Assembly (NCBI RefSeq): GCF_031501865.1
Contig: NZ_JARRCW010000002.1
Coordinates: forward strand, 62,001-126,000
Length of the DNA: 64,000 bases
Reading direction: 5' to 3'
Source: Pseudovibrio sp. M1P-2-3
GTDB lineage: Bacteria > Pseudomonadota > Alphaproteobacteria > Rhizobiales > Stappiaceae
The notes beneath the pieces are model-generated. The model saw only the letters and a program-made list of their open reading frames with translations, made no database searches and was not told the DNA's origin. The translations under genes and the position numbers were made by a program. Positions 4,449 to 45,187 of this stretch are shown in pieces; the first letter of the stretch is position 1; each line of letters opens with the position of its first letter.

Positions 4449-4474
4449 TATCCTATATCATTTATATTATCCTA
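4449..4474. promoter_or_regulatory. tandem TATCCTA motif
   Basis: TATCCTA occurs at 4449-4455 and again at 4468-4474, 19 bp apart, in the divergent spacer between the pentapeptide-repeat gene and the bactofilin gene. In this orientation it cannot be a ribosome binding site for the bactofilin. It is one of the clearest copies of the motif that recurs across the element. Confidence 0.55.
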
Positions 4475-4475
4475 A

Positions 4476-5114
4476 TTGATAGAATTGCAATATTTTGAAA
4501 TAGGCTCATCAAGAATGATTTTATCTGCTGCATATAATAAGGCGCAGGATGCGTTTTCTCCTGAAACAACGGTTCAAGGGAATGCAAAAAAAGACATCAT
4601 TGCGAAAAAGGTAACGATCTGTGAAAATGCAGTCTTGGTTGGAAGCATTAAAGCAGATACGGTAATCATCCATGGATCAGTGCAAGGTGATATAAAGTCC
4701 AAAATCTGTAAAATATCAAATACGGCAAGTGTAAAAGGCAATATCCAATCCGAGAAATTGACCAACCTTAACAGCTTTGAGGGCTATGCATTTGTAGACC
4801 TATATGAGGCTGGAAAAAATGCTGTTACAAAAGGCTCCCTCTATGCCTCTCGCATCCACTTATTGCAGTCTTGTAATGTTACGGCATGCTTTGAGCAACG
4901 TGGTGCAGTGGAAGCAAAGAAACTTGAGGCGTCAATCTTTGATAACTTTCTCGAAGATACGCAGGAAAACGAGACCCTAAAACCATTTCCAGTTCAAAAA
5001 TCCTTGAGCCGGCAACTAAGTGATATAAAACGGAATAATATGAATGAAAGCATTCCGCTCCCTACTCCCATTGGAAATACAGATGAAATCCCAGAGTTTC
5101 TACGGATTGTATAA
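4476..5114 (+). CDS. bactofilin-family polymer-forming protein
   Basis: 212 residues from the TTG at 4476; an ATG at residue 14 (4515) is an equally plausible start, as neither has a strong ribosome binding site. Residues about 33-120 show the bactofilin signature of short beta-rungs: VQGNAKKDIIAKKVTI, LVGSIKADTVIIHGSVQGDI, KGNIQSEKLTN. A flexible tail (about 155-212) ends in a proline-containing segment. Bactofilins polymerise without nucleotide into membrane-bound scaffolds and often recruit cell-wall enzymes. Here it lies next to a lysozyme/extensin-like wall protein at 5.9 kb, so a role in localising wall remodelling is a reasonable inference. Confidence 0.75.
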   Translation: MIELQYFEIGSSRMILSAAYNKAQDAFSPETTVQGNAKKDIIAKKVTICENAVLVGSIKADTVIIHGSVQGDIKSKICKISNTASVKGNIQSEKLTNLNSFEGYAFVDLYEAGKNAVTKGSLYASRIHLLQSCNVTACFEQRGAVEAKKLEASIFDNFLEDTQENETLKPFPVQKSLSRQLSDIKRNNMNESIPLPTPIGNTDEIPEFLRIV

Positions 5115-5176
5115 TTCACCATGGACCAAATTTGATGCTTTCAGCCATGTGGATTGCCCGAATGTTATAAGTTCGG

Positions 5177-5446
5177 CTAAAATCGAAGAGGAACTGATTT
5201 ATTAATCAGTTTGTCCAACACGTTCAGGAAGTCCTCATTCTCACGAGGTGGAAGTGCCTTGATTTGCCAAAATGCCAGATGTAACTCTGACGATGGGGCC
5301 GGGGTTATTTGTGTATGAATGGTAGGGTGCTCACTGGTAGGTTGACTGATACAGCCACCTAACAAATAGGACAACATGATCAAAAATATCGTTGGTTCAT
5401 TTAGATTGTCCAATATTTTGCGGAACTTGTTGGCTTGCATTGACAT
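5177..5446 (-). CDS. small putative lipoprotein
   Basis: 89 residues if started at the ATG at 5446, which is preceded by TTGAGG at 5 nt; an upstream ATG at 5479 is in frame but has no ribosome binding site. A hydrophobic segment runs into a lipobox-like LLGGC, after which the mature part is short, Pro/Ser/Thr-rich and then helical. The n-region is unusually long for a lipoprotein (about 20 residues). No family recognised. It converges with the bactofilin gene and is divergent from the 5491 gene. Confidence 0.5.
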   Translation of the reverse strand: MSMQANKFRKILDNLNEPTIFLIMLSYLLGGCISQPTSEHPTIHTQITPAPSSELHLAFWQIKALPPRENEDFLNVLDKLINKSVPLRF

Positions 5447-5466
5447 TTTCGCCTCAAGATAAAAGA

Positions 5467-5513
5467 ATAGGATAAACAAAGTTGGGTGTCATGAATAAAT
5501 TAATTTATCCTAT
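5467..5513. promoter_or_regulatory. TAGGATA/TATCCTA pair near divergent starts
   Basis: ATAGGATAA at 5467-5475 lies in the spacer between the divergent lipoprotein and secreted-protein genes. TTATCCTAT at 5505-5513 lies in opposite orientation just inside the 5491 coding region. Together they form a spaced inverted pair of the element-wide motif. Confidence 0.45.
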
Positions 5514-5898
5514 ATTCCTATCTTTATTGACTGTGTCAGCACCATATGCGCAACCATTGTCAATTCCAATTGTATATGAACAATTTTCTCAAAACACTCC
5601 TGAAGCCCTTAAGTACTGGGGGAAATCAGCCATGGATGCAGAGGGAACTTTGGTTTCACCTAGCATCTTTGTCGGGAACGTGCCAGTCGGATCGATCCTA
5701 CTTACTGTAACCATGCTCGCAGCACCCAGTGTATGTGGCCTCAATGAGTGTCCAGTACGTATTTTTAAAGATGATAAGATGTTAGCAAGCTTCAACTCTT
5801 GCGATAATGTAATGTTCCATAGCCTCAGTCAATCTGGATATTTCTTCCGCGGTTGTGATGATATTTATCCTACCGGGCTTGTAAAACATGATGATTAA
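5491..5898 (+). CDS. secreted hypothetical protein
   Basis: 135 residues from the ATG at 5491. The N-terminus is a signal peptide (two-residue basic start, hydrophobic core, likely cleavage after APYA-Q at about residue 22). The mature part has four cysteines (CGLNECP and a C-terminal NSCD...GCDD pair), consistent with periplasmic disulphides, and a central hydrophobic beta-rich stretch. Family not recognised. Its end overlaps the start of the next gene by 11 bp, so the two are co-translated with the wall hydrolase-like protein. Confidence 0.65.
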   Translation: MNKLIYPIFLSLLTVSAPYAQPLSIPIVYEQFSQNTPEALKYWGKSAMDAEGTLVSPSIFVGNVPVGSILLTVTMLAAPSVCGLNECPVRIFKDDKMLASFNSCDNVMFHSLSQSGYFFRGCDDIYPTGLVKHDD

Positions 5899-7375
5899 GT
5901 CACCCTTTATAACTCGTATAGCCCTCTTATGTCTTGTCGTAGGTAACAGCTGTCAGTTAAGTGCCGCCAAAAGTATTGGTGAAACCGTTACAGAAAAATC
6001 GAACCAGACATGTGGTAACAACTCTGCCAGAGATATTGTTGGTGCATTAGAGTCCGGAGGGTCGGGAGGCTATCAAGCAGTGAACTCCCATGGCTACTTG
6101 GGTCGGTATCAAATTGGCGAGGCGAAACTTCAAGATTTAGGTTATACCATTCCAGATGGAAACTCTAAGGACAACAGCTTCACGTGGTCAGCAAAGGCTC
6201 GCCGTGAATTAAATGTATCAAATAATCAGGATTTTTTAAACCAACCTGATATTCAAGAGCGGGTCTATACGGAGATCAATCAGCTCAATATTGACTATCT
6301 GGATGATGCCAATCGAGCAATTGGTGATACTTTACCCTGTGGGTCTACGATCACACAAGATGCCCTTTTGGCCGGTGCTCAATTTGGTGCGCAAAAGGTT
6401 AAAAACTATGTCAATAATGGATATAAGTGCATTTATGAGGGGGGGGCTCAAGAAAATACAGTTGATGGCAATGGGGTATGTGTTGAAAAGTATATGTGCG
6501 CCGTGGCCGGATGTTCGACTATCCAAAAGGACATGAGCAAGAAAACATGTGATGTTGTTATGCCTATGCTTAGTGCCATTGATTGCTCCACCTACCCGCC
6601 CCAAGCGCAGAAATTTTGTAAGAAATATAAGCCACAACTGATGACGCGAGCACAATGCGATACAGCAGAAGAATTATCAAAAGAGGCTGAGAAAGGTCCT
6701 AATGCGGACGCGTGTGAGAATATGACGTTTGGACCAGGTACCGGAAGCTGGTCTTTTGTTCTTGCCTGCTCCTTTGCTGAGAACCTTCCTGCAGACCAAG
6801 ACGGAGTGACCAATCCTCCAACATTTGTTGGGGACCCTGAATGTATATCCAAGTTGCGCGAAACGGGCGCACAGTTCTCAGAGCTAGGAAATTACACAAA
6901 CGGATCCATTGGAGGTTATAGCTGCGTGATTCCAAATGCAGTCTCCATTTCGCGCTCTCCAAGTATGGAGTGGGGACGAAAATTGACCCTTATGTGTGAT
7001 ACAGCTTTGCAAATGGTTAACTTTGATAAGGAACTCAAATCTCTAGGCGCGAGTGAATACTATGACATATCTTCTACCCGTACATGCGGACCTAAACGGG
7101 ACAAAAACGGTAATAAACCGGGTACTGTTACAGAACATGCACTTGGACGTGCAATTGATGTGGGTGGGTTTATCGTTAACGGCACAAAGTACTCCTTTGG
7201 TGAGATTGCAAACGCTAAAAATGGGGCGGGAACTGCCAAGACAGCTATTGTAAAGAAAGCCTATGATGCAGCTTGTGAGAACTTTAATCTCGTTTTGTCC
7301 CCCAACTATCCTGGGTATCAAGGCGCTTATGTCCATTTCCACTTGGAGCAAGCAGGAATGAGTGGATGCGAATAA
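5888..7375 (+). CDS. lysozyme-like plus extensin-like peptidoglycan protein
   Basis: 495 residues with an N-terminal signal peptide. Residues about 48-175 look like a lysozyme/transglycosylase fold: GALESGGSGGYQ with a candidate catalytic Glu55, then LGRYQIG. The middle (about 195-330) is cysteine-rich and of unknown function. The C-terminal 110 residues match the extensin-like (M15-related) domain: a cysteine before the core, TEHALGRAIDVGGF with His417 and Asp423, and HFHLE near 483, which are zinc-ligand positions in M15-type peptidases. A protein combining glycan-cutting and peptide-cutting modules fits local opening of the wall, as needed for a secretion machine. It overlaps both neighbours (11 bp upstream, 10 bp downstream). 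The domain calls rest on motif recognition from memory. Confidence 0.75.
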   Translation: MMIKSPFITRIALLCLVVGNSCQLSAAKSIGETVTEKSNQTCGNNSARDIVGALESGGSGGYQAVNSHGYLGRYQIGEAKLQDLGYTIPDGNSKDNSFTWSAKARRELNVSNNQDFLNQPDIQERVYTEINQLNIDYLDDANRAIGDTLPCGSTITQDALLAGAQFGAQKVKNYVNNGYKCIYEGGAQENTVDGNGVCVEKYMCAVAGCSTIQKDMSKKTCDVVMPMLSAIDCSTYPPQAQKFCKKYKPQLMTRAQCDTAEELSKEAEKGPNADACENMTFGPGTGSWSFVLACSFAENLPADQDGVTNPPTFVGDPECISKLRETGAQFSELGNYTNGSIGGYSCVIPNAVSISRSPSMEWGRKLTLMCDTALQMVNFDKELKSLGASEYYDISSTRTCGPKRDKNGNKPGTVTEHALGRAIDVGGFIVNGTKYSFGEIANAKNGAGTAKTAIVKKAYDAACENFNLVLSPNYPGYQGAYVHFHLEQAGMSGCE

Positions 7376-7866
7376 ATAGAACCTACGTGTTTGTCTGTCT
7401 GGTGTTCACATTTATGAGCAGTGCGTTTGCAGATGAAAGACATGATCATGAAAAAGCTTCAGATCTTTCTTTTTTCTTAACCGCAAACTTTAAACTGCCA
7501 GTGTGGAGGAGGTATCACCCCCTCCATCAAAGGGTGGAAACGGAGGTCGTTGTTCCGGATTTACTTGAGCATGGGAACCACAGTGAACAAAAGCCCGTGT
7601 TCGCTATGTCTCTTGTACAGCTACTAGGAGATAATACTCCCGAACTGTTTATTCTCAATCGATCAAATGGACGGTGCAATCAGGATGGTTGTTTAGTTCA
7701 AATCTACAAATTATCAGCTGGCAGCTGGTATAAAATATATGAGAACACGGCCTCAGCAATTGTTTATAGGCCAGAAAAAGGACAAGTACCAGCCAAAATC
7801 GCCTCAATAGGTGATACCCCCTCTATCCATACCTGGAGCCCATTAGCTGGGGCATTTAATAAATAA
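7366..7866 (+). CDS. secreted hypothetical protein
   Basis: 166 residues starting inside the end of the preceding wall-hydrolase gene (10-bp overlap). It has a signal peptide ending near SSAFA-D. The mature domain has a strand-rich core (SLVQLLGDNTPELFILNRSNG...CLVQIYKL) resembling secreted proteins that report on large-molecule content, but I cannot assign it to a family. It is the third gene of a likely operon with 5491 and 5888. The IS256 element lies immediately downstream. Confidence 0.6.
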   Translation: MRINRTYVFVCLVFTFMSSAFADERHDHEKASDLSFFLTANFKLPVWRRYHPLHQRVETEVVVPDLLEHGNHSEQKPVFAMSLVQLLGDNTPELFILNRSNGRCNQDGCLVQIYKLSAGSWYKIYENTASAIVYRPEKGQVPAKIASIGDTPSIHTWSPLAGAFNK

Positions 7867-7897
7867 GCGCCACAATGGAAAAGAGAGAGCTATAACT

Positions 7898-9264: not shown

Positions 9265-9369
9265 GACTATATCTCGAAAAGAGATTATGATCACTCAAAC
9301 AGTTAGCATCGTTATAGAAAGATACCAGCAGTACCAAGCGTTACTTGTGTGTCCCTGCAGATGAGAAAT

Positions 9370-10964: not shown

Positions 10965-11370
10965 CAGACATTAACCTATTCGTAGTTACAATTGTACCCA
11001 TATCAATCAGAAAGCGAGTTTGTGGCTTCTAGCTCATTTTTTAGCCACAAAAAAGATTTATTTAAAAATTTACCTTAAAGGCCAAGCCCCCTACCACTTT
11101 CGTTTAAAAGAAAGTTACCTAGAATATTTGCAAGTTTCATTATAAACTTTTACGTGTTTTTTTATTTTTTTTTACACAGTTAGAAAAATGAGACTTGGAT
11201 ACGTGTTCATACCTATCTACTGAGTTCACTAACAATATATCATGATGCGATGTGGCAATAACATGACTATCCTATTCAGGTTATCTTTCTATCCTATTCA
11301 GAATAAAACTTGCTTTATCAAAAATATTATTAGGAGTATGCTGTGAAGAAATGAGATAAAGGTACCCTAA
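10965..11370. other. AT-rich divergent spacer
   Basis: 406 bp between divergent genes. No plausible gene was seen. It contains T/A-rich tracts around 11,155-11,175, a short hairpin at about 11,097-11,116 (ACTTTC...GAAAGT), and the tandem CTATCCTATTCAG sites listed separately. It probably holds promoters for both directions. Confidence 0.5.
11267..11301. promoter_or_regulatory. tandem 13-bp direct repeat CTATCCTATTCAG
   Basis: Identical 13-mers occur at 11267-11279 and 11289-11301, centres 22 bp apart (about two helical turns), 70 bp before the ADP-ribosyltransferase-like gene. Both contain the TATCCTA core of the element-wide motif. The spacing suits two dimers bound on one DNA face. Confidence 0.55.
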
Positions 11371-17439: not shown

Positions 17440-17964
17440 TTAGTGAGACAGTGAGAAACTGTAATCAGCCGTACTTTGACTTCGGCAAACAGTACACATC
17501 CGATTGTGCTTTCCTTCTGAAACAAAACGAGTTTCACAACACAAGCAGGACCGATACCTTTTCTCCTGCGTGGATGGAGTAGTCACCCCACTCAGGAAAT
17601 CTTCTGGAAGGGTAATGAGCTTAAAGATATCCTCAGTACTCTCTCTCAGAATATATTGGCAAACACTGTCGATAGACCGCCCAAGCTCGGCTGCGACAAG
17701 ATCGACTCTGACCTTACCGCTCCTATTCGTGTGCCGGCTAATTGACCCGTCCAAGACAACAAGTTCCTCATCTTTAAATAAAATTCTTGAATTCACCGTC
17801 GTGGATCGCCTCGGTAAACTCAGCCGAGAGGCCTGCGACTGTATGGATAAAATGGATCGCTCCAGATAATAGGATATCACAAACAGACTGCCTACTTGTG
17901 ACCATAGACTTATAAGCAAAGCCACTTCATCCTCACGCCATCTCTTTACCTTTCGAGAGTTCAT
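17440..17964 (-). CDS. GcrA-like N-terminus with C4 zinc finger
   Basis: 174 residues from the ATG at 17964 (TAGG at 9 nt); an in-frame TTG three codons earlier is less likely. The N-terminus RWREDEVALLISLWSQVGS...ILSIQSQASRLSLPRR resembles the helix-turn-helix start of GcrA, the alphaproteobacterial cell-cycle regulator. The C-terminus CLCCETRFVSEGKHNRMCTVCR is a C4 zinc finger of a type common in small alphaproteobacterial regulators. A DNA-binding regulator is the best reading, and it could govern the divergent Dot/Icm operon that starts 146 bp away. Confidence 0.65.
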   Translation of the reverse strand: MNSRKVKRWREDEVALLISLWSQVGSLFVISYYLERSILSIQSQASRLSLPRRSTTVNSRILFKDEELVVLDGSISRHTNRSGKVRVDLVAAELGRSIDSVCQYILRESTEDIFKLITLPEDFLSGVTTPSTQEKRYRSCLCCETRFVSEGKHNRMCTVCRSQSTADYSFSLSH

Positions 17965-18032
17965 GCAACTCAACCTACATACTTGTTGACACTTATCACT
18001 TCTTTAGACAGAAAGGATCATTCAGTAACAAT

Positions 18033-18108
18033 TTATCCTAGCCACATATATCATTTATCACTATGATGTAATAATTAAATACGAATAAGGATAAAATTTA
18101 ATAGGATA
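18033..18108. promoter_or_regulatory. TATCCTA/AGGATA cluster before dotI operon
   Basis: Three copies of the motif lie before the first Dot/Icm gene: TTATCCTA at 18033-18040, AAGGATAA at 18087-18094 and TAGGATA at 18102-18108, in both orientations and reaching to within 3 nt of the ATG. The last two can also serve as purine-rich ribosome binding sites; the first cannot. Confidence 0.55.
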
Positions 18109-18110
18109 TT

Positions 18111-18779
18111 ATGTCTAACGCAAAGAAGCCCCATAAAGCAAACTCTGGGATGCAATCCCAACTGGATAAGGTTATTGGTGCAAAGGTCGCGATCCATGCT
18201 ACATCCAGAGAAAGCTACCAGACTTTCATGCGGATTATCTTCGGGCTGATTTGCATTATTGCACTTTTGTCATTCTTTATCATATACTTGGCCATGCGCC
18301 CGGTAGAGGAGCGCAATTATGCTGTAGACCCTCAAGGCAGAATTCTCCCCTTACAAGCTCTTTCAGAGCCAATCCAGTCGGACAATTATGTCATCAACTG
18401 GGCGTCAACATCCCTACAGGCTGCCTACACTATGTCGTGGGCGAGTATGGAAGAATTCAATGCTAGAAATAGGCATAATTTTACCGATGCAGGTTGGCAT
18501 GGTTTTGAAAAAGCGATCACTCAATCAGGCTTTCTAGAAAACATGACCAATAATCAGGTCATCACCAGTGCTGTGGCAAACGGTGTGCCTATCATCAACG
18601 CTCGTGGAGTAACTTCTAGTGGCCAATATGGTTGGTTGGTTGAAGTTCCTCTGATGCTTCAAATGCGCAGTGCGTCTAAAGTCGTGAACAAGTCATTGCT
18701 TGCCCAGATTACGATTGTCCGCCGTCCTGTAACAGAAAATCCAAGAGGGCTTGGGATTGCTCAAATTACAACTCAATAG
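18111..18779 (+). CDS. dotI: DotI/IcmL-type T4BSS inner-membrane protein
   Basis: 222 residues. A single N-terminal membrane helix (about 41-64, FMRIIFGLICIIALLSFFII) is followed by a periplasmic domain with the IcmL/TraM signature: AAYTMSWASMEEFNARNRHNFTDAGW and the late QITIVRRPVTENPRGLGIAQ. DotI forms a ring at the inner membrane of the type IVB machine. This is the first gene of the operon, preceded by a TATCCTA/AGGATA cluster. Its end overlaps dotH by 29 bp if dotH starts at its TTG. Confidence 0.9.
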   Translation: MSNAKKPHKANSGMQSQLDKVIGAKVAIHATSRESYQTFMRIIFGLICIIALLSFFIIYLAMRPVEERNYAVDPQGRILPLQALSEPIQSDNYVINWASTSLQAAYTMSWASMEEFNARNRHNFTDAGWHGFEKAITQSGFLENMTNNQVITSAVANGVPIINARGVTSSGQYGWLVEVPLMLQMRSASKVVNKSLLAQITIVRRPVTENPRGLGIAQITTQ

Positions 18780-19728
18780 ATCTCAAATGGCGCAAGCTGG
18801 CACGCTAGCTCTGTCCATAAGCCTTATCGCGACAGCCTTCCAAGGGCAGGCTGTCGCTCAGGATCTTATTATTCCTGAGACTTATGATTACCAGTTGGAC
18901 GACCAAGATAATGCCAACTTAAATGTTGGAATGGAAAAGAAAAACTACAATCCTACAGATGAAATGCTTCGCGAGGCTCTTAGTAATATCGTTCCAATCA
19001 CTCCTGAACAAATCCTTGATGCCCGGCGACACAATCAGATCGTAGAAGACGCCCGCTCTAAGCCTCTGGATCCAATACAGCAAAACTCGCGATCTTTACC
19101 AATCAGCTTGAAATCTGGAGAAGCTTCACCGGTTATAAACGTCTCGCCTGGATGGATTTCAACGATAACATTCTCTGATGTAACCGGTCAGCCATGGCCA
19201 ATTTTGTCAGTGATCAACGGCAATCCGGACGTATATAATATCCAAACAACAGGAAAGCCTGGTGAAAGTAATATCCTAACGATTAGTGCCGGATCCGCCA
19301 GCATTCCGACAAATGTTGCGATCACCCCAGTTGGAGCAAATGTTCCTATAATGGTCACCCTGCAACCATCGCGATCCCGTGTGGATTACAGAGTTGACGC
19401 ACTTATCGACCAACGCGGACCTAACGCAAAGGTCAACTATTCCTCGGTAAGCTCACTTACAAATGAAACTGACGACAGTACCATGTTGTCCTTCTTGGAC
19501 GGGGTTCCCCCGGCTAAGGCCAAGTCTTTAAAGACCACAGATAAGCAGGTTGAGAGTTGGTCCTTTAATGATCGCCTATATGTGCGGACCAATAAGACTT
19601 TGCTCTCCCCAGCATATATGGCCACACAATCCAATGCCAGTGGCATTCATATTTACGTCTTAGAAAGCACTCCGGTCCTGCTAATTGGAGACAGGGGTCG
19701 CATATCTAAAGTTAGCATAAAAGGGTAG
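18751..19728 (+). CDS. dotH: DotH/IcmK-type outer-membrane core protein
   Basis: 325 residues from the TTG at 18751; the ATG at 18787 is the alternative. It begins with a signal peptide ending near AVAQ-D. The C-terminal half is the beta-rich IcmK/TraN domain (PGWISTITFSDVTGQPWPI, then MVTLQPSRSRVDYRVDALIDQRGP), counterpart of VirB9. With DotC and DotD it forms the outer-membrane ring. Size agrees with family members. It overlaps dotI upstream and dotG by 1 bp downstream, so translation is coupled. Confidence 0.88.
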   Translation: MGLLKLQLNRSQMAQAGTLALSISLIATAFQGQAVAQDLIIPETYDYQLDDQDNANLNVGMEKKNYNPTDEMLREALSNIVPITPEQILDARRHNQIVEDARSKPLDPIQQNSRSLPISLKSGEASPVINVSPGWISTITFSDVTGQPWPILSVINGNPDVYNIQTTGKPGESNILTISAGSASIPTNVAITPVGANVPIMVTLQPSRSRVDYRVDALIDQRGPNAKVNYSSVSSLTNETDDSTMLSFLDGVPPAKAKSLKTTDKQVESWSFNDRLYVRTNKTLLSPAYMATQSNASGIHIYVLESTPVLLIGDRGRISKVSIKG

Positions 19729-20915
19729 TGCTTTTCAAAATGAAGGCGTTCATAAAAAATATTAAAACCAGTATAGGTGGATCCAAAAAAACGCTACTAA
19801 TCGCACTAGGGATCTTTCTTGTGGTGATGGCGGTACTGTTTCTTTTTGACAGTGAACCAACGGTAAATCCATCTACGGTCACGACCCTGCGGGACATGCG
19901 TGGAACTGTTCAAGGGGCAAACCCCCTTGCTCCTGAATATCGTAAGCAGGTTGAAAAAGCAGATCAAAAACGCATAGAAGATGCGCTTGCGACAGGGGGC
20001 ACTGCTTTACCAACAATCATTGCTGGAGATACCCATGAAGCTGTGCTTCCACTAGATATAGAAGAAGAGGTGCCTCCGCTGGTCCTGGAAGAGCCAGAGG
20101 AGGAGACGGAGGTCAAAAATGCTGCCCAACCCGACTTCATATTCGAACCGGACCCTCAGCAGCATTTTGCATCACCGGTACAGAAAGTCTCAAACCCTGA
20201 GGATATTGGACGTATTGAAGAGTACCTTCGGACCCTTACCACCAACGCTCCCGTTGCAAGTGTTGAGACTGTTTATTCGGGAACTTACTATCAAGACCTA
20301 GAACAAGCCAGTGCCGAAGACACAGAGCCGTCCTCACCACGAAAGGACGAGGATGAACCGCAGGTTTCCATGCCACTTGCTGGGACTGTCCTATATGGCC
20401 AACTGATTAGCCGGGCAAACTCTGATACTCCAGGCCCCGTACTCGCAACTATTTTACAAGGCCCTCTCGCTGGATCACGTTTGATCGGCTCTTTTACCTT
20501 GCGCCAGAACACCTTGGTGATCGATTTCCAAACCGTTGCTGTTAAACAGTATCAAGGTCGGGAGATAAATAAAACTTTCCCTGTCAACGCTGTAGCAGTA
20601 GATACAAAGTATATAGGTACGGGATTGGCAACCAAAGTAAACCGGCACCTTGCGCAGAAGATTGGATTTACGTTCCTATCAGGACTTGCCCAAGGTATTG
20701 GATCTGCTATTTCGCAAAACGGCAGTACGACAACTGTTCGTTCAGATGGCTCAGTCACAACCTCTACAAGCGACCTCAATACGACTGAGAGCTTACTTTC
20801 CGCGTCAGGTCAGGCAGTTTCCCAAACAGGGCAATTATTGATGTCAGAATACGGTTCCCGGCCAACAACGGTCATTGTCGAAGCAGGAACTCAACTAGGC
20901 GTACTTTTCTATTAG
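19728..20915 (+). CDS. dotG: DotG/IcmE-type core protein, short form
   Basis: 395 residues from GTG at 19728; the ATG at 19740 is also possible. Membrane helix about 22-40, then a proline/glutamate-rich linker (about 90-145). The C-terminal 180 residues match the VirB10/TrbI-like domain: AGTVLYGQLISRANSDTPGP, GPLAGSRLIGSF and the final ...IVEAGTQLGVLFY. It is close to the length of IncI TraO and lacks the long pentapeptide-like repeat region of Legionella DotG. It spans the periplasm and links the inner- and outer-membrane rings. Confidence 0.9.
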   Translation: MLFKMKAFIKNIKTSIGGSKKTLLIALGIFLVVMAVLFLFDSEPTVNPSTVTTLRDMRGTVQGANPLAPEYRKQVEKADQKRIEDALATGGTALPTIIAGDTHEAVLPLDIEEEVPPLVLEEPEEETEVKNAAQPDFIFEPDPQQHFASPVQKVSNPEDIGRIEEYLRTLTTNAPVASVETVYSGTYYQDLEQASAEDTEPSSPRKDEDEPQVSMPLAGTVLYGQLISRANSDTPGPVLATILQGPLAGSRLIGSFTLRQNTLVIDFQTVAVKQYQGREINKTFPVNAVAVDTKYIGTGLATKVNRHLAQKIGFTFLSGLAQGIGSAISQNGSTTTVRSDGSVTTSTSDLNTTESLLSASGQAVSQTGQLLMSEYGSRPTTVIVEAGTQLGVLFY

Positions 20916-22424: not shown

Positions 22425-23156
22425 ATGGCAGGTCAAAAACAACAACTCATCTTAAGTGTGAAATGTAAGAACTGGAGAATGAACAGCCAAGATTCACATA
22501 AAGCTGATACCGAGTTCAAAACAATGCGTACCAAAGCACTTAAGAGAGATAAGCAGACCTGCCAGTTTTGCGGATTTAAAGACAAACAATGGCAAGAAGT
22601 CCATCATCTAAACGATGACCACAGTGATAATCGTCTCTCTAATTTGATAACGATATGTGCGTTTTGTCATAATTGTCACCACATAGGTTATGCCGGAGTA
22701 CAAAAGGAGGCCGTTCTTATTTGGGCTCCTGAAGTAACCCAACAAGAACTTCATCATATTGTCCGTTCATGTCTGGTGGCCAAGGCTTGGGCAGACAAGT
22801 GCCTTGCAAAACCTGGGATCTTACAAAAGGTTCGTTTAAATGCACTGAAAAACAATGACAGTTGTCAAGCTCTATTGAGTGCGCTGCGTGCAAGAACCCG
22901 TGATGCAGAGAAATGGATTTTGACAAGCGATCCCACTGTTTTGGCTAATATGCTCCTTACTTTACCACATAAAGACTATCAGCGCAGACATGAGTTCTTA
23001 TCGGGCATTCGCCTTCTTCCACTTGGTTATAGAGCACATGAGGGTGGAAATCTTTATGAGCAACGGGCAAAGAAATGGATCGAACAAGGAGGCGTTTATT
23101 CAAACCTGAAACCTGAAACCTGGTCGTCATTGGCTGATGGTTTTTTAAACTCTTAA
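22425..23156 (+). CDS. dotN: DotN/IcmJ-type coupling-complex protein
   Basis: 243 residues. The N-terminus carries an HNH-like zinc motif (RDKQTCQFCGFKD, VHHLNDDHSDNRLSNLITIC, FCHNC) in the arrangement of IcmJ/DotN: LILSV...NWRM, then the two cysteine pairs. In Legionella DotN belongs to the type IV coupling complex with DotL and DotM, and the fold is structural rather than nucleolytic. Its place after DotG and DotF matches the icm order, so a homing endonuclease is unlikely. The C-terminal third is helical. Confidence 0.8.
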   Translation: MAGQKQQLILSVKCKNWRMNSQDSHKADTEFKTMRTKALKRDKQTCQFCGFKDKQWQEVHHLNDDHSDNRLSNLITICAFCHNCHHIGYAGVQKEAVLIWAPEVTQQELHHIVRSCLVAKAWADKCLAKPGILQKVRLNALKNNDSCQALLSALRARTRDAEKWILTSDPTVLANMLLTLPHKDYQRRHEFLSGIRLLPLGYRAHEGGNLYEQRAKKWIEQGGVYSNLKPETWSSLADGFLNS

Positions 23157-24869: not shown

Positions 24870-25466
24870 ATGGGGTCTAATATTCGCAACCTTGATGCGG
24901 CAACAGTAGAAATTCTGGTCAACGGAACAGCCAGACTTGTCTCTGCCAGCTTAGCCAAAAGTGATATTGAGAACCAGCATGTGCCCTCAATCATTGAAGA
25001 TGTCTTTAGTGAGCTCGTCTATACTGCCCAATCCTTACAGGAGCCGCGACCAGTCTTTGAAATGGAAGTACTTCAGGAGATCACACCTCCCTCCCCTCAC
25101 AGACAGCTTCCTGCCCCTCAAAAACACACCGCCAAAAGTGTTCCCGTTCCGCAACTAGATTTCAGTTTTGACGACCAATCTGAGGTCGTTGAGCCCTCCC
25201 CAGCCCCAGCCCCAGAAAAAACACTCCACAAGCCTGTATTCTCTGGCGTAACCCTATATTTTGATGGGATCATTTGTCTGGAAGACAACAAAAAGGTTTT
25301 AAACCTAAGGGAACACCTCAAATCCCATCATAATATGAGACCACAAGAATATCGAGACAAATGGAAGCTACCTGAAACATATCCGATGATCGCCCCTTCC
25401 AAACTCATGAAACAGGCTGCAACTCACCGTGTGGATCCGGCCACATCAAAACTAATCCCACTGTAG
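24870..25466 (+). CDS. MucR/Ros-family zinc-finger regulator with extended N-terminus
   Basis: 198 residues, longer than the usual 140 or so. Residues 1-60 are the helical oligomerisation region of Ros/MucR proteins. About 65-120 is a proline-rich linker. The C-terminal 75 residues are the Ros/MucR domain: DGIICLEDNKKVLNLREHL, KSHHNMRPQEYRDKWKLP and TYPMIAPSKLM. MucR-type proteins bind AT-rich DNA with T-A steps, often as silencers of acquired genes. Position between two Dot/Icm genes suggests it controls the transfer system. It is also a good marker for an alphaproteobacterial host. Confidence 0.85.
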   Translation: MGSNIRNLDAATVEILVNGTARLVSASLAKSDIENQHVPSIIEDVFSELVYTAQSLQEPRPVFEMEVLQEITPPSPHRQLPAPQKHTAKSVPVPQLDFSFDDQSEVVEPSPAPAPEKTLHKPVFSGVTLYFDGIICLEDNKKVLNLREHLKSHHNMRPQEYRDKWKLPETYPMIAPSKLMKQAATHRVDPATSKLIPL

Positions 25467-26191: not shown

Positions 26192-28450
26192 CTATTTTTG
26201 TATCGGCCCCTGGGAGACCTCCGTACTTTTTGATTTGGAAGGGGTCGTTGGGCCATCCAAGTCATTTTTGCCACCATTTCCCTTACCCTTACCTTTTCCG
26301 TCAGGTTTTGGTCCCGCGGGTTTCATATTCGACATAATTGCGTTTGCACCACCAGCTGTTGCACCCGTAACGGCCGCTACAGCTGCATGGCTTTCATGCT
26401 GGTCTTGATAACCGGCGGAGTTAATACCCATCCAGGCTCCAACGCGATCCGCAATAGTGGGAATCATCGAGTATAGACGAAGAGTAAAATGCCACTGGAG
26501 AAACATAATAATCACAGTTTCGGCAATGAACGTCCAAATCCACGATAAAACATCAATATTGGCTGGATGTTCCATTGGATTAAGACTATCGCGATCAACT
26601 GAAACCAAATCCCATACGGCGCCCCAACTGACATTCAGCGTATTAATCATAACGGGAAGGAGAGCCATACACCCGATAAAGGCCAGCATCCCGATGGCCG
26701 GGCGTAGTAGAAGATTAAATAGGAGCCCAACACCTGCGGACTGTTGCTGGTCCACAAGATCCTGGCCATCCATACGTATGAACACAAACGCCCATAAGAC
26801 AACCGCAATTGCTGCTTCCAAGAAAGCCACGGCCCAGCCAAAACCCATGATTAGTACCATGACGAATGGGATAAGCGGAAGAATGTAGGTGTGTAACATG
26901 CCAGCAATAAGGGCAACGAGTACCCCATAGCTGAGCCACCCAAGTAAGTTACCAACAAACTTTTCAATAAATGCAGCACCACCTACCCCAATCGCAGGGA
27001 CTAACCATGAAGATGCAGTTCCAACACGTGCCGCGAAAGTTGCTCCCTCCATTGTAGCCATACCAATGATCGCAACGTCTGCGCCCAGTAAGAGCATTCT
27101 GCCACGCCAAATCATATCACCAACAGGATCATTGGACCATTCACTCCAATCTAAACCTGGCGACCCCATTATTCTCGGGCTGGTCGTGCTGATGATATCT
27201 TCAAAAGCACCCTCGATCTTCCCCATCGCATATTTTTGCGAGGAAGCCTTATTGTTAATCGGTTCAGTGGGAGTTTCCTCCCCCCCCTGTCCTGTCTCGG
27301 AAGGATCACTAGCTGGCGTGCTACTGGCAGTTGACATGTTAGAAACATTTTTGAAAGTGGTCACAAGCCATGAGTAACCGGCAACTGACGGGCCTAATAA
27401 AGTTTCACTGGGAGAACTATAATCCGGCAATTCATTAATCACTGTGGTCGTAGTGGCCGCGATTTTGGATAGGATGCGCTCGTACGCTCCAGCCATCATA
27501 AAGCCGCCCTTATCCACTAGGGTAAATAACTGGCTTGATTGTTGCTCGGTTAGAGACCCTTGATAAATTACTTTGGCCTTTTTCCTAAGACCATTGTTCC
27601 AAACTTCAATTCTCTTATTTCGAAAATCATGAAAGTCGCCGGGAACATAACCGTTCTCACGAAGTGTACCCGCAAGAGCAACAGACGCCTCGTTAAAGTT
27701 ATTTTCCTTCGGCAGAAGCGCGATCACTGTCTCCCAATTGAATCTATCAAGGTATTTTGCGATATTGTCTGCCATTTTTAAGGTTAGGCCCGACCGGGCT
27801 ACGGCAGTCAATTTATGGGCAGAACCATCGGAGGTAAACGTATTGAGTTGCAGTTCGCCGCAAACTCCATAGTTAAAATATTCAACCCCATCGCGAATAT
27901 ATTGACGCCGGCTTCTAGGGGGATAGGTGATCGTACGCAAGAATGTATTATATTGGCGCTGCTCGTTAAAATATCTTAAACACATCTCACTGTCGAACAG
28001 GGCATCAAAGACACGCTCACCTTGCGTACTTTTTACAACCACACTTATGGGGTTGGATTTGTATTTTTCCATATAGGCTTTAATGGGGGCATTGCCCAAC
28101 TGGATGGCCGCCCGGCCAATCACATCCCGCAATAAATAGTGTCCTGCTGAAAACCCGTCTGACAAGGGAATGAGTAGGCCGAACCCTAAGATGACACGGA
28201 TCGGAGCATAGAGCTGATGATATTTATCGCCCAAGACCCTCCCACTTGAAGCGGTGCTGACAACCCCCGAGATGATATGCCACCCCATCAATAATGCGCC
28301 AAAAAAGGTAACTACCCCGCTGACGGTCCCAAAAGCATCACCTATTGGGCTTTCTCCCAACGGGAAGAGAGCTTCCACCCACCGCCAGGCAAGGTCTGTG
28401 TCTTTAGGCTCAGCCAGAAGATCTGAAATCGTGCTTGCCACTGTACTCAT
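26192..28450 (-). CDS. dotA: DotA/TraY-type polytopic membrane protein
   Basis: 752 residues. A hydrophobic N-terminus (about 40-65 and 85-100) is followed by a large periplasmic region (about 105-370). Several closely spaced helices lie in the C-terminal half (about 470-680), including MGFGWAVAFLEAAIAVVLWAFVFIRMDG, which matches the DotA/TraY core. The C-terminus is Gly/Lys/Pro-rich and disordered. DotA is essential for transfer in the family and is the largest polytopic protein of the system. It reads opposite to the other block-1 genes, with a strong terminator at its 3' end. Confidence 0.85.
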   Translation of the reverse strand: MSTVASTISDLLAEPKDTDLAWRWVEALFPLGESPIGDAFGTVSGVVTFFGALLMGWHIISGVVSTASSGRVLGDKYHQLYAPIRVILGFGLLIPLSDGFSAGHYLLRDVIGRAAIQLGNAPIKAYMEKYKSNPISVVVKSTQGERVFDALFDSEMCLRYFNEQRQYNTFLRTITYPPRSRRQYIRDGVEYFNYGVCGELQLNTFTSDGSAHKLTAVARSGLTLKMADNIAKYLDRFNWETVIALLPKENNFNEASVALAGTLRENGYVPGDFHDFRNKRIEVWNNGLRKKAKVIYQGSLTEQQSSQLFTLVDKGGFMMAGAYERILSKIAATTTTVINELPDYSSPSETLLGPSVAGYSWLVTTFKNVSNMSTASSTPASDPSETGQGGEETPTEPINNKASSQKYAMGKIEGAFEDIISTTSPRIMGSPGLDWSEWSNDPVGDMIWRGRMLLLGADVAIIGMATMEGATFAARVGTASSWLVPAIGVGGAAFIEKFVGNLLGWLSYGVLVALIAGMLHTYILPLIPFVMVLIMGFGWAVAFLEAAIAVVLWAFVFIRMDGQDLVDQQQSAGVGLLFNLLLRPAIGMLAFIGCMALLPVMINTLNVSWGAVWDLVSVDRDSLNPMEHPANIDVLSWIWTFIAETVIIMFLQWHFTLRLYSMIPTIADRVGAWMGINSAGYQDQHESHAAVAAVTGATAGGANAIMSNMKPAGPKPDGKGKGKGNGGKNDLDGPTTPSKSKSTEVSQGPIQK

Positions 28451-28480: not shown

Positions 28481-28589
28481 TTATCCTTAGTATATTGACG
28501 TCTCATCCTGTACGCAAACGCAAAGTCTTACTTAACATTTTAAATTGACTCGCTAATCAACTCATAGTAGAGTATACGATATAGGATAA
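28481..28589. promoter_or_regulatory. TTATCCTTAG and TATAGGATAA in divergent spacer
   Basis: TTATCCTTAG at 28481-28490 faces dotA and TATAGGATAA at 28580-28589 faces the 28609 gene. Each is 20-40 bp from the start codon it precedes. The 158-bp spacer therefore has one motif copy per divergent promoter. Confidence 0.5.
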
Positions 28590-28923: not shown

Positions 28924-29519
28924 GTATCTCATCATCAGACGGGATTATTCCCACTATTAATGTGGTATGCTGTCCCGGCGTGAGATCGATCAAGCAGGTC
29001 AGCATCCAAGAAATAACGCTGAATTATAACGGGTTTTGTGGATCTATCCGGCTCTGGTCAACTGCTCCTATCAAAAGCTGCCCTAAACTACATGTGTAAA
29101 CTGGCTCAACGCCAAGCACTCCTCACGGCCCTGAAAAGCTTTGGGGAGTGCTTTTTATAGAGGGTAAACATTCCATGGGCGAAGGGACTGCCTTTGATCA
29201 CTTCAGCAATCGATCGAAAAAAACAGTAGTGATTACTGTTGTGTTTGTATTCACGGATGTAAATAGAACGTAAATTTACATGAAGGCACGCTTTAGGGGC
29301 GCGGAAATGAGACAGTCCGTCCGAGCGAAAACCGGATTGCTCACCTAGTGTACAGGCCAAGATTTTGCCCCATACCTTCTCGAAACATCCAAAGTATGCG
29401 CTCTATCCTAATTTATTCTCATATTTCACTACGAAGTTATCCATTTATTGTAGAATTAATATTGAAATTTAAGATCAAATTAAGGATATAAGAAAGAGGT
29501 ATTAAACGGGATAGGATAA
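28924..29519. other. 596-bp spacer with possible small RNA
   Basis: No convincing coding region. A rho-independent terminator at 29114-29157 has no gene immediately upstream, so a short non-coding transcript of about 200 nt may end there. ATGCTG...CAGCAT at about 28966-29005 could be its 5' stem. A second hairpin, AACAGTA...TACTGTT, lies at about 29223-29241. The last 120 bp contain TATCCTA and TAGGATA copies before the MarR-like gene. Confidence 0.4.
29114..29157 (+). terminator. rho-independent terminator without an upstream gene
   Basis: AAGCACTCC (29114-29122) pairs with GGAGTGCTT (29145-29153) and a T5 run follows. It is 190 bp beyond the nearest plus-strand stop, which suggests either a long 3' UTR for the 28609 gene or a separate small RNA. 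Confidence 0.65.
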
Positions 29520-29520
29520 A
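29404..29520. promoter_or_regulatory. TATCCTA and ATAGGATAA before marR-like gene
   Basis: TATCCTA at 29404-29410, AAGGATATA near 29483, and ATAGGATAA at 29511-29519 directly abutting the ATG. The last copy doubles as ribosome binding site (AGGA, 3 nt gap). The first is 110 bp upstream and cannot. If the motif is an operator of the MarR-like protein, this would be autoregulation. Confidence 0.45.
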
Positions 29521-32599: not shown

Positions 32600-32606
32600 T
32601 ATCCTA
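32600..32606. promoter_or_regulatory. TATCCTA copy
   Basis: A single TATCCTA lies 41 bp before the ATG of the 32647 gene in an orientation that cannot be a ribosome binding site; the real site is AAGGAG at 32632-32637. Confidence 0.4.
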
Positions 32607-34418: not shown

Positions 34419-34590
34419 ATATACACCGCTTACTTTATCCTTTTACCTTATCTTCTCGCTGTGGCCCACAACCCCAACTGTTAAGGCCAAATTATCATAT
34501 ATTTTCGACAATCTAAAGACAAACTAGGTATAAAATTGGCTTGTTTCTGAAAGAACAAATGACTAATACTCTCTAAATGAGTTGTCGTTT

Positions 34591-34606
34591 ATCCTATTTA
34601 TAGGAT
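34591..34606. promoter_or_regulatory. perfect palindrome ATCCTAT-TT-ATAGGAT
   Basis: A 16-bp dyad in which the two half-sites of the recurrent motif face each other with 2 bp between. It is 10 bp before a weak ATG frame (34617) and 420 bp before the 35012 gene. This is the clearest sign that the motif is a dimer-binding operator. TTATCC and TTATC copies also lie near 34435-34452 before the IalB gene. Confidence 0.6.
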
Positions 34607-36064: not shown

Positions 36065-36078
36065 AATAGGGTTTAACA

Positions 36079-38154: not shown

Positions 38155-38286
38155 AAGTTCGCCAAACATCAGAATATCATCTCGCCAGATAGCGGGCACA
38201 TACTGATAAGATAGCCTTCGGGGAAAATGAAAGCAATCTTTAACAATCATCCTTTTAGATAATATTTTATCCTATGTCAATTAAAA

Positions 38287-39207: not shown

Positions 39208-39226
39208 AGGAACCTTTGAAACTTTA

Positions 39227-40381: not shown

Positions 40382-40387
40382 TATACC

Positions 40388-40768: not shown

Positions 40769-40770
40769 GT

Positions 40771-41802
40771 TTAAACACTCTCATCCTCTGTTTCCCTCGC
40801 CTGATACATGGCATACTTGTAAAGACCGCGAACATTTGAGTATTCAGGATCGGCTTCAACTGTCCCGTTTTGTTTATAGGCTTCCACGATCTCCCGAAAT
40901 AATGCACTGCCCCCACCAACAAACAGAACCTTTTTAAAACTGGCCCCTGAGCCAAGATTTCGTTGGATTGCCTGTCCAATCTGGCTTTGCTGCATTCTAA
41001 CCGCCTCAGTTACCTCCTTGGTAACATCCTGGCTTTTACCCCACAAATCGATCCGGTTGTTGCGTACTGCTGCGTTCAAAACCGCTAGGGAAAAGTCATC
41101 TTCAATATCAAACTTCTTGCGCAACTGGTTCTGCAAGGCTTCATAAACACTGAGAACTCCTTTGTTAATGGATCCGGATCTGGCATGGTCAATATGTTCG
41201 CCAGAGACAACAGTGGCGATATCTGTGGTACGCCCGCCAATATCCACCACAGCCACATCTCCCTTCAGATCAACCTTTGGCTTAAATTGATCATCCAAAG
41301 CATAATCCACCCATGCGGCAACGGCTTGACAGCCCACCTGTACTTCATTGATTTGTGCAATCTCTACTTCTTTATTGGCAGGGGTAATTGCTTGGCTGAG
41401 GTTACCAACTTTTCGTGCAATTAATTCATCGTTGCGTTCTGCATCTTTAAAATAGTTGGCAACTGGAAGTCCTGAAATAACATTAACTTTTTGTCCTCCA
41501 AAACCTGCGCTAATCAAGGCATGGTTGACAAGCACCCTATTGTTTGTCGAATAATGAAATTCATTAAACTCTGTCGAGACACTTGGAATGTTATCAGATA
41601 CCGTATAAGGGCCGTTTTCGGTTTCATACATTCCAATCATACCTCCACCTCCAATGGCGCCCAATCCAAATCTGCCTTGGCGGACAGTTGATCGAATACA
41701 CATTTTAACTTCTTGGCCATCAGGTAGAAAACCATAAACTTTTGTCTGAGCATACCCATCATCTACCGCGATCACCGGGCAGTTTTTATCTTCGAATTGC
41801 AT
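40771..41802 (-). CDS. ParM/StbA-family actin-like ATPase
   Basis: 343 residues. Actin-fold nucleotide motifs: phosphate-1 IAVDDGYAQTKV (about 11-22), phosphate-2 VAVVDIGGRTTDIATV (about 183-198, Asp187) and the adenosine motif KKVLFVGGGSALF (about 297-309). StbA/ParM filaments push plasmid copies apart before division. It has a good start (AAAGGATAA before ATG). It is embedded between IcmT and DotM in the same operon, unusual for a segregation gene, which suggests that transfer and segregation are jointly controlled. Confidence 0.88.
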   Translation of the reverse strand: MQFEDKNCPVIAVDDGYAQTKVYGFLPDGQEVKMCIRSTVRQGRFGLGAIGGGGMIGMYETENGPYTVSDNIPSVSTEFNEFHYSTNNRVLVNHALISAGFGGQKVNVISGLPVANYFKDAERNDELIARKVGNLSQAITPANKEVEIAQINEVQVGCQAVAAWVDYALDDQFKPKVDLKGDVAVVDIGGRTTDIATVVSGEHIDHARSGSINKGVLSVYEALQNQLRKKFDIEDDFSLAVLNAAVRNNRIDLWGKSQDVTKEVTEAVRMQQSQIGQAIQRNLGSGASFKKVLFVGGGSALFREIVEAYKQNGTVEADPEYSNVRGLYKYAMYQARETEDESV

Positions 41803-41812
41803 CTTTTATCCT

Positions 41813-42142: not shown

Positions 42143-42149
42143 TTCTCAC

Positions 42150-43304: not shown

Positions 43305-43317
43305 GTTTATCCTTCCC

Positions 43318-44388
43318 TTAAAAGTGATCTTTCTTTAGATCCGGCGCTAATTTTACAGGTGTAGGAACAACAGGCGGGACGCTTTTTTTACCCTGCACGC
43401 TCGGTTTGTCCCAGGCACTTGTACTTTTGCGCACCTCGTCGATAACTGTATCTTTGAGTTCACGTACACCCTCAATCTGGCCACTATCAGATTGATATGT
43501 CGGCGAGCTCTCCCATTTGTTTGTGTCAAGAACTAGTTTGGAATCTTGAGTAATTCGAATGGCCCGGTCGTTCACACGCATGTTCTCGCCATTTCCAGTT
43601 GTGCCCATGGACCCTAAAGCCACAATAGGAGAGGTTACTTTCCCCTCTTCCAAAAGACGCTTGTACCGTACCATCCCTGCATAGTCTCTAGACAACCGTG
43701 CAAGGTTTGTTTTGAAAATTTGATTGGCCTGCTCCTCACCTTCCCTCCATCCTCGGGTGACACCTTTTACCCAGATATCGCCTTCCGCTTTATTGTTCGG
43801 TGTAAGTGCTGCAGGTACTTCACTTGCCTCCTCAAATGAACTGATGAGGTAGCTTTGCCAAAGAGGGGGAACAGACGTAAAGCGGGCTTGATCTATCACC
43901 TCATAGACCGTATCAGCCACACGAAGTGCTTTGCCTTTTTCATATAACTCCCAAGCTTCCTTAGCCTCAACAATAACAGGTGGGGTAATTATGGAACCAT
44001 CAGGCCCATCAATCATAACTGATGTGAATTCAAAAAGCTCAGCAAGTTCACTTGAATTTGTTTGCAATGTTTGATTGATCTTGTCCGTCCGGTAAGCAAG
44101 TCCTGAACGAGCACCATATGAAAGCGCCGCTTCCTCCAGAGCTGTAATCCGAAGTGTATCAAGCCCTTTTTCCCCTTCATTGCCCTGGAGGGGCTTTCCT
44201 TTTCTTAAAACCTCTTCGAGGGAGGGGGGACGGACGTCCACTTTCTTATCCTTTGCTTGACCTTTTGAACTCAAGCTCAGTTTGGAAACATTAGGTTGGG
44301 TATCATCAGCACTCATCACACCGCCATACGATTGGCACCCACTTAAAATGGAGCCGCATAGGAGTGTTATTACCAAACGTGTCGACAT
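43318..44388 (-). CDS. dotC: DotC-type outer-membrane lipoprotein
   Basis: 356 residues. Lipobox LSGC with acylated Cys18, then a linker and the DotC/TraI domain: ALEEAALSYGARSGLAYRTDKINQTL, TPPVIVEAKEAWELYEKGKALRVADTVYEVI and ARFTSVPPLWQSYL. It forms part of the outer-membrane ring with DotD and DotH. It has a longer C-terminal tail (Pro/Lys-rich) than Legionella DotC. Confidence 0.9.
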   Translation of the reverse strand: MSTRLVITLLCGSILSGCQSYGGVMSADDTQPNVSKLSLSSKGQAKDKKVDVRPPSLEEVLRKGKPLQGNEGEKGLDTLRITALEEAALSYGARSGLAYRTDKINQTLQTNSSELAELFEFTSVMIDGPDGSIITPPVIVEAKEAWELYEKGKALRVADTVYEVIDQARFTSVPPLWQSYLISSFEEASEVPAALTPNNKAEGDIWVKGVTRGWREGEEQANQIFKTNLARLSRDYAGMVRYKRLLEEGKVTSPIVALGSMGTTGNGENMRVNDRAIRITQDSKLVLDTNKWESSPTYQSDSGQIEGVRELKDTVIDEVRKSTSAWDKPSVQGKKSVPPVVPTPVKLAPDLKKDHF

Positions 44389-44410
44389 TTGCTTTCTCCA
44401 AATCTAAAGG

Positions 44411-44917
44411 TTAGCGGACCATAGAGTGTGAATTGGTTCTATAGCGGAACTCAACAATCTTCTGATTGGGATCCAGACTCACCTCGCCAAATGGGTAGGC
44501 CTGTTCACCAATCTGTGAGAGAATGTGTACAACCTTACCTGAACGAACACGAATGTGGACCATGGGTACAGTAGCAGGCGGATTCCCGCCCTCACGAACT
44601 TGATAGCCGATCATATTTGCAACACGCTCGACAGCTTCCTTGGCAGGTCCAGACCATATAAAATCCGTCTTTCTCTCCAACTCTTCAGGTAATGACTGTT
44701 CATCCAGTACTAATTTGCCAGGGATTGTCCGGCTGACTTGAACACGCGCCAGTTCCTGCTGCGCTGCAGCTGCTTGGTCAGCCGCTTCTTTCAACAACCC
44801 AACCGTGACCTGATCAGCCTCAGGTACCGGTGATACAACTTCAATAGGTGTATTACTCCGACACCCAGCCATACCTAAAAGGCAAATTACCAAAATAGAC
44901 CTGATCCTAATTTTCAC
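44411..44917 (-). CDS. dotD: DotD-type outer-membrane lipoprotein
   Basis: 168 residues. Lipobox GMAGC with Cys19; then a helical linker and the small secretin-N-like domain (about 78-160) with AVERVANMIGYQVREGG and the late SLDPNQKIVEFRY. First gene of the block-2 operon dotD-dotC-dotB-icmT-parM-parR-dotM. Two motif copies lie 15 and 76 bp upstream of the start. Confidence 0.9.
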   Translation of the reverse strand: MKIRIRSILVICLLGMAGCRSNTPIEVVSPVPEADQVTVGLLKEAADQAAAAQQELARVQVSRTIPGKLVLDEQSLPEELERKTDFIWSGPAKEAVERVANMIGYQVREGGNPPATVPMVHIRVRSGKVVHILSQIGEQAYPFGEVSLDPNQKIVEFRYRTNSHSMVR

Positions 44918-44931
44918 GGCAACGCTCTCGT

Positions 44932-45187
44932 ATTATCCTATACAAACCACTACTTCTATCTACGCTGCAATTGGTGAGAGAGGCAAGTTATTTTATCCTA
45001 ATCGACCTTTCTAAACGTGCTGTGCGTCATATCAATTCATTTATTGCCTATTTTGAATGTTTTTAAGTGATATTACCTTTATTTAACCTGCACTATTGTG
45101 TTGCATGTGTACATAATTTCATTAGAGAGCTTATATATTGTGTTTAATTTTCGCATAATTCAGATATTAGCTATCCTATTATAGGTA
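44932..45187. promoter_or_regulatory. motif cluster upstream of dotD
   Basis: ATTATCCTATA at 44932-44942, TTATCCTAAT at 44993-45002 and the near-palindrome TATCCTATTATAGGTA at 45172-45187 (CCTAT-T-ATAGG dyad). The first is TATAGGATAAT in the direction of dotD and overlaps where a leader or -10 would be. A further TTATCCTGAG lies at about 45239. Confidence 0.55.

Follow-up and report, generated by a model that had tools for sequence, protein, structure and literature searches.

A 64,000-nucleotide stretch of the genome of Pseudovibrio sp. M1P-2-3 (the window) raises the question of why one short word, TATCCTA or its complement TAGGATA, recurs in the spacers between genes and what protein might read it there. 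The window corresponds to positions 62,001 to 126,000 of contig NZ_JARRCW010000002.1 (C2:62001-126000), a 253-kb contig of a 4.96-Mb genome assembled in 8 contigs; because the ends of C2 do not overlap, it could represent either a whole plasmid or a section of one. Positions are those of the window unless prefixed with C2. TATCCTA/TAGGATA is very probably an operator word of this element, and the balance of the evidence tilts toward its being bound by a transcription regulator that acts across the plasmid, putatively the protein encoded at 17440-17973 beside a set of Dot/Icm-type transfer genes.

Genes were predicted with our own scripts in two versions (giving 19.3 versus 35.9 kb of spacer in low-GC C2), and C2 was divided into a low-GC part (0 to 110 and 200 to 253 kb) and a middle part (110 to 200 kb, given as a negative) after the distribution of the word was known. 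TATCCTA occurred in 25 exact copies on both strands of the window (shuffle mean, 5.46; largest, 14; 100 shuffles), and the spacers between 4.4 and 45.2 kb held 15 copies (null mean, 0.97; largest, 5; 500 shuffles). This is far above shuffled sequence, the comparison by which an earlier note on this DNA had proposed to judge its claim of enrichment. In the same range its density was 4.28/kb in spacers and 0.24/kb in open reading frames (ORFs), and it was 0.13/kb in the spacers of 140 kb of chromosome. In the spacers of low-GC C2, AGGATAA and TAGGATA were the two highest-ranked 7-mers. The description of the word in the earlier note as occurring in both orientations, as tandems 19 and 22 bp apart and as dyads was borne out (4449/4468, 11268/11290, and 34590), while other details needed adjustment. 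Of the 23 positions given, 17 fall within 2 bp of an exact heptamer, 5 mark a TATCCT whose seventh base differs, and the remaining one (16027, TAGGATG) has neither. The statement that the word hardly occurs inside genes holds per kilobase but not by count, as 10 of the 25 exact copies were internal to ORFs; the copy at 5506 lies within a predicted ORF, as does that at 5468 if longest-ORF starts are taken. The region of 4.4 to 45.2 kb is indeed enriched but was drawn too narrowly, since TATCCTA is also present at C2 0 to 62 kb and 200 to 236 kb, and its reported absence from 47 to 64 kb is correct for spacers but not for ORFs, one of which holds an exact copy (56430). At C2 110 to 200 kb there were only 4 copies, of which 1 was in a spacer. 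The probable operator copies are as follows, with likeness to a ribosome binding site (RBS) indicated.

4449..4455, + strand: exact TATCCTA, not RBS-like, in the divergent spacer 5' of a bactofilin gene; tandem with 4468 (19 bp)
4468..4474, + strand: exact TATCCTA, not RBS-like; tandem with 4449
5468..5474, - strand: TAGGATA, RBS-like, possibly with a dual reading, just 5' of the TTG start of an ORF of 138 amino acids
11268..11274, + strand: copy in a direct repeat of CTATCCTATTCAG with 22-bp spacing
11290..11296, + strand: second copy of the 22-bp tandem, exact, not RBS-like
18034..18040, + strand: exact heptamer in the divergent spacer between the regulator gene and dotI
18087..18093, - strand: one-base variant AAGGATA in the regulator/dotI spacer
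18102..18108, - strand: exact TAGGATA beside the dotI start, also RBS-like
28582..28588, - strand: exact, RBS-tested copy between a gene of 752 amino acids (26192-28450) and 28609
29404..29410, + strand: exact, RBS-tested copy 5' of a MarR/HxlR-like gene
29512..29518, - strand: exact TAGGATA before the MarR/HxlR-like start, RBS-like
32600..32606, + strand: exact, RBS-tested copy 5' of 32647
34590..34596, + strand: exact, RBS-tested copy forming the left half of the dyad TATCCTATTTATAGGAT
38268..38274, + strand: exact, RBS-tested copy 205 bp 5' of a D-Ala-D-Ala carboxypeptidase-like gene
44934..44940, + strand: exact, RBS-tested copy 5' of a dotD-like gene
44994..45000, + strand: exact, RBS-tested copy 5' of the dotD-like gene
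45172..45178, + strand: exact, RBS-tested copy

As several of these lines indicate, the copies might be nothing but RBSs and -10 boxes that share no regulator. AGGATA was the most frequent hexamer just 5' of ATG in low-GC C2 (12 of 101 genes versus 8 of 212 chromosomal genes), which agrees with the earlier caution that some AGGATAA copies before starts may be ribosome sites, and with ORFs of at least 30 amino acids 17 of 56 spacer TATCCT copies across low-GC C2 were RBS-like against a background of 12%; both results count against an operator. When an ORF of at least 70 amino acids was required, however, RBS-likeness at 4.4 to 45.3 kb was confined to 4 of the 26 TATCCT copies in spacers and to 2 of the 15 heptamers there. 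The other 13 heptamers amount to 3.63/kb, which is 28-fold the density in the spacers of 440 kb of chromosome (0.13/kb), and this majority rules out ribosome sites as the complete explanation. Moreover, the word is not one of the top-ranked words of the chromosome, whose genes are translated by the same ribosomes, and the related words described below occur equally in both orientations and are helically phased. We therefore consider an origin in RBSs and -10 boxes highly improbable.

We searched for the word in related plasmids. TATCCTA itself was not kept among relatives identified by DotH, with at most 2 spacer copies at every one of 55 loci; the first related word was AAGGAAA, found as tandems and as dyads, also in the dotI spacer, on Thalassospira xianhensis contig 1 (423 kb). 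All spacer 8-mers were ranked by their excess over an order-2 model, with distinct contexts only. Expectation-maximization motif discovery slid into low-complexity sequence and was replaced by exact words with single-substitution counts, on which the word definitions are based; the patterns used for counting were picked after the rankings and differ slightly among the class-density, upstream, phasing, and bin counts. Portions were sampled of the plasmids of Bosea RAC05 (400 of 709 kb), Acetobacter persici (400 of 526 kb), Bosea ANAM02 (200 of 692 kb), Acetobacter pasteurianus (200 of 471 kb), Rhizobium leguminosarum (120 kb, plus 40 kb far from the transfer genes, of 1,324 kb), Methylorubrum extorquens AM1 (160 kb, plus 40 kb far, of 1,261 kb), and OB3b (99 of 209 kb).

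The word-bearing elements numbered eight and are giant plasmids or contigs of different alphaproteobacteria; the seven besides C2, one of them a contig, have related Dot/Icm-type genes. Their dominant words are all of the type (A/T)AGG(A/C) and differ in spelling: TAGGATAA (C2), AAGGAAAAC, CAAGGATTG (two elements), CAAGGATAA, AAGGCCTT, AAGGATTCG, and GAAGGAACG. The top spacer 8-mer was AGGATAAA in low-GC C2 (28 versus 2.6 expected, followed by TAGGATAA with 23 versus 1.8), AAGGAAAA on T. xianhensis contig 1 (105 versus 9.7), AAGGATTG on both Bosea plasmids (RAC05, 36 versus 2.7; ANAM02, 26 versus 1.6), CAAGGATA in A. persici (40 versus 4.4), and AAGGCCTT in A. pasteurianus (40 versus 4.6, every place being counted twice because the word is palindromic). 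Near the transfer genes it was GAAGGAAC in AM1 (42 versus 2.7) and AAGGATTC in R. leguminosarum (29 versus 1.3), where AAGGATTC was still the top word in far parts of the plasmid, with few copies (6 versus 0.4). A word of another type ranked first in the spacers of the chromosome of the window's genome, of C2 110 to 200 kb, of the far region of AM1, of OB3b (DotH present; no regulator match in searches of plasmid records), and of the other T. xianhensis contigs, where AAAGGCCG ranked third (13 versus 3.3). By single-substitution counts the word is specified over 8 to 10 positions in most elements and tolerates substitutions chiefly in its 3' half and at either end; in A. pasteurianus it is specified less sharply.

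In the relatives the words showed no orientation bias. Site density was highest in divergent, intermediate in codirectional, and lowest in convergent spacers in seven of the eight elements, and convergent spacers were poorer in sites than divergent ones in all eight. Some copies stood alone and others formed arrays with spacings of about 2, 3, or 4 helical turns, a helical phasing that rests mostly on one plasmid. Spacer sites numbered 45 to 214 per sampled element. Of the 20-kb bins, all 22 of T. xianhensis and all 20 sampled from A. persici contained sites; in one relative, a few copies abut a -35 box. Words of the same design in seven relatives, together with their orientation balance, divergent-spacer density, and helical phasing, strongly support the proposal of an element-wide operator.

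Could the word instead be the promoter element of a plasmid-encoded sigma factor? A large sigma-70 gene (frame of 518 to 702 amino acids) is present in seven of the eight plasmids, but C2 is without a sigma-70 match, all 4 matches of its genome lying on another contig (C1), and on this ground the promoter element was rejected. In addition, the words have neither an orientation preference nor a fixed distance to genes, they form phased arrays, and TTGACA -35 boxes are separate from them, which leaves this explanation with very little probability. The sigma-70 genes themselves (region 2 match) lie on T. xianhensis contig 1 (C1:254840), Bosea RAC05 (203921), Bosea ANAM02 (397431), R. leguminosarum pRlX5 (566581), the AM1 megaplasmid (1212433), A. 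pasteurianus (310665), and A. persici (396932), and possibly encode primary-type sigma factors. As a separate observation, the next most enriched independent word in the spacers of T. xianhensis contig 1 was TGTTGACA (40 versus 4.7), apparently a strong -35 box; it or its 7-mers were also enriched in R. leguminosarum and Rhodovastum.

If the word is an operator, a single element-encoded regulator is a plausible reader. The genes that bear on its identity are as follows.

17440..17973, - strand: putative reader, with a GcrA-like helix-turn-helix repeat, a Myb-like repeat, and a C-terminal CxxC...CxxC ribbon (homologues and structure models)
18111..18779, + strand: dotI/icmL-like transfer gene, first of the dotI-dotH-dotG operon (Pfam PF11393, 8.5e-38)
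18751..19728, + strand: dotH/icmK-like transfer gene (Pfam PF12293, 3.4e-59)
19728..20915, + strand: dotG/TrbI-like transfer gene (Pfam PF03743, 1.2e-11)
24870..25466, + strand: MucR/Ros zinc-finger gene, rival candidate for the reader (Pfam PF05443, 1.5e-20)

Dot/Icm-type transfer genes were identified with Pfam at 18.1 to 21 kb and 38 to 45 kb (dotI, dotH, dotG/TrbI, dotM, a T2SSE-type ATPase, dotC/TraI, and dotD, with a ParM-like gene at 40771). They include the genes that mark an MPF_I or Dot/Icm-like system, namely dotI (PF11393), dotH (PF12293), dotG (PF03743 [TrbI, the dotG-type domain]), dotC (PF16932), and dotD (PF16816). Among 201 genomes related to the host, DotH was rare, occurring in 2, one of which is the host's own. 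For an HNH-type protein of the dotI operon (22425-23156), the search of seven other plasmids gave homologues in six, and a second dotI/icmL-like gene lies at C2:43985-44686 (Pfam, 1.3e-40).

The 17440-17973 gene is the divergent neighbor of dotI, and homologues are present in T. xianhensis, Bosea, and R. leguminosarum. When 72,556 plasmid records were searched at the protein level, 8 contained homologues, which with the window and T. xianhensis makes ten records, and each of the eight word-bearing elements has one full-length copy; a smaller search of 7 records gave a match in 6, one of them broken or partial, and another record had a second, partial match. Among 385 genomes of the class, 35 matched at 1e-6, all except the window's own genome over short stretches (mostly the C-terminal ribbon), and no further full-length relatives were found. 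A match was obtained in 1 of 29 genomes of the genus of T. xianhensis, again with no additional full-length relative, and two scans of viral contigs gave no relatives. Sites cluster upstream of the regulator gene, a test run separately from that of other gene families and with hand-set start coordinates. Structure models of the T. xianhensis homologue gave alignments of its repeats with GcrA and Myb domains, repeat 1 extending over 48 of 49 (5yiu) and 44 of 45 (5yiv) residues of the GcrA DNA-binding domain at 29 to 32% identity, which is consistent, for one repeat, with the label GcrA-like in the earlier note. Pfam holds a GcrA family model, which was not among the matches of five homologues scanned at E values up to 1; a PDB sequence search with the regulator profile returned weak Myb and unrelated matches alone, and Foldseek alone gave no match at an E value of 0.001 or better.

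Of the three candidates named in the earlier note, this GcrA-like gene is the best supported. The MarR-like gene at 29520 was rejected, as it is missing from the C2 genes listed with homologues in two or more of seven other plasmids, and the MucR-like gene at 24870 is the weaker candidate. MucR/Ros proteins, global alphaproteobacterial regulators described as H-NS-like and oligomerizing, could read the word as a plasmid-wide silencer. Their family genes (PF05443) matched in all eight records with the word and in neither of the two without it, while the GcrA/Myb homologue was present in all ten; since the two word-less plasmids also lack MucR genes, MucR stays a rival. Alternatively, another nucleoid, partition, or silencing protein of the element could be the reader and the GcrA/Myb-like protein merely be linked to the transfer genes, as phased, orientation-neutral sites over a whole plasmid suit a nucleoid-type protein. 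The word was not the top type on the Acidiphilium and Rhodovastum plasmids, although both carry a homologue, which weighs against the GcrA/Myb-like protein as reader.

We nevertheless prefer it, moderately, over MucR, for three reasons. MucR and Ml proteins are described as recognizing, through the minor groove, AT-rich targets of 5 bp that contain a T-A step (PMC5693944), whereas the present word has a constant GG and about 8 to 10 specified positions. Sites are not in excess before MucR genes (4 versus 4.1 expected upstream of each of two C2 MucR families; a site within 250 bp upstream of 4 of 9 plasmid MucR genes checked). Finally, of all the homologues, those of the two word-less plasmids have the lowest similarity to the window's protein (21 and 23% identity). 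The AM1 homologue of the window's MucR protein has, by eye, apparently lost finger residues. As to another element protein, the recognized regulator candidates among C2 genes common to several plasmids are the GcrA/Myb-like and MucR-type proteins (by eye and Pfam, in the part of the genes scanned), convergent spacers are poorer in sites than divergent ones, and two Acetobacter plasmids retain the regulator despite its distance from dotH. We regard MucR and another element protein each as unlikely, and the 17440-17973 protein as the probable reader. The Rhodovastum plasmid gave no DotH match. On the Acidiphilium plasmid, the top de-duplicated spacer 8-mer was AATTCGAA (20 versus 3.1), possibly that plasmid's own operator; tRNA genes may explain part of this count.

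Molecules of the GcrA/Myb-like protein would sit side by side on one face of the DNA and switch many plasmid genes together, including the dotI-dotH-dotG operon and their own promoter. The GcrA-like repeat would contact the shared AGG core and the Myb-like repeat the variable part of the word. Binding could repress, as suggested by the copies abutting a -35 box, or activate, as GcrA does with sigma-70; we slightly prefer repression. GcrA, a Caulobacter cell-cycle regulator and sigma-70 cofactor, is described as acting with sigma-70 (PMC7987155), which together with the plasmid sigma-70 genes suggests a reading with a plasmid sigma partner. Repeat 1 of the modeled T. xianhensis homologue could be aligned over nearly the whole GcrA DNA-binding domain; the plasmid-borne protein differs by adding a Myb-like second repeat and, at the C terminus, a zinc ribbon. 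In the first 120 kb of R. leguminosarum pRlX5, AAGGATTC (31 copies) contains GATTC, a GANTC site; GANTC is absent from the word in the seven other elements, and in the spacers of all eight plasmids it stands at 0.34 to 0.93 of expectation. More speculatively, this giant-plasmid family might run its own transcription program, in which a GcrA-derived two-repeat regulator reads phased plasmid-wide operators, has drifted from methylated GANTC to element-private words, may partner the plasmid primary-type sigma factor (seven of eight plasmids), and codiverges with its word, insulating the plasmids from one another.

Smaller plasmids, such as RK2, are known to have plasmid-wide regulons of about a dozen operators. 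On that IncP plasmid, the plasmid-encoded regulators KorB, a CTPase sliding clamp, and KorA, which locks it, are described as silencing plasmid promoters (PMC11790492). On the plasmids studied here operator-like words are likewise repeated, and a single reader would act on them; by contrast, the proposed reader is of the GcrA/Myb type, the sites are far more numerous than a dozen, and the word varies by element. The Myb-type domain of the plant MYB-related proteins OsMYBS1-3 and MYBST1 is described as reading GGATA/TATCCA (PMC12586236); these proteins are eukaryotic and would resemble the plasmid protein at the level of the fold alone. A literature search over titles and abstract openings, with few subscription papers, yielded nothing on this motif or regulator. 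One design recurs on plasmids of Rhizobium, Methylorubrum, Bosea, Acetobacter, and Thalassospira in which the word changes and the core stays, a natural series for following the joint change of a regulator and its numerous sites. It bears on the control of transfer genes by giant plasmids, giving candidate target promoters for each, and may bear on the recruitment of a cell-cycle regulator fold by a mobile element.

Several other features of C2 were observed. A cluster of CxxxCxxC proteins, radical-SAM-like by eye (C2:31201-37163 and 49230-52768), is shared with T. xianhensis and R. leguminosarum. A glycine-aspartate repeat protein with RTX-like calcium-binding repeats (by eye) is encoded at 55218-55739, and a long repetitive surface-type protein at 60044-64000 continues past the window end. 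Beside the RepA_C gene (C2:997-2040) lie eleven iteron-like copies of AAAGTCCC (C2:2182-3297). Fourteen overlapping AACCTGAACC words in 6-bp steps (C2:215570-215660) and six pairs of closely spaced, oppositely oriented CAGCTGTCAA words (C2:214329-215843) are possibly origin or partition repeats.

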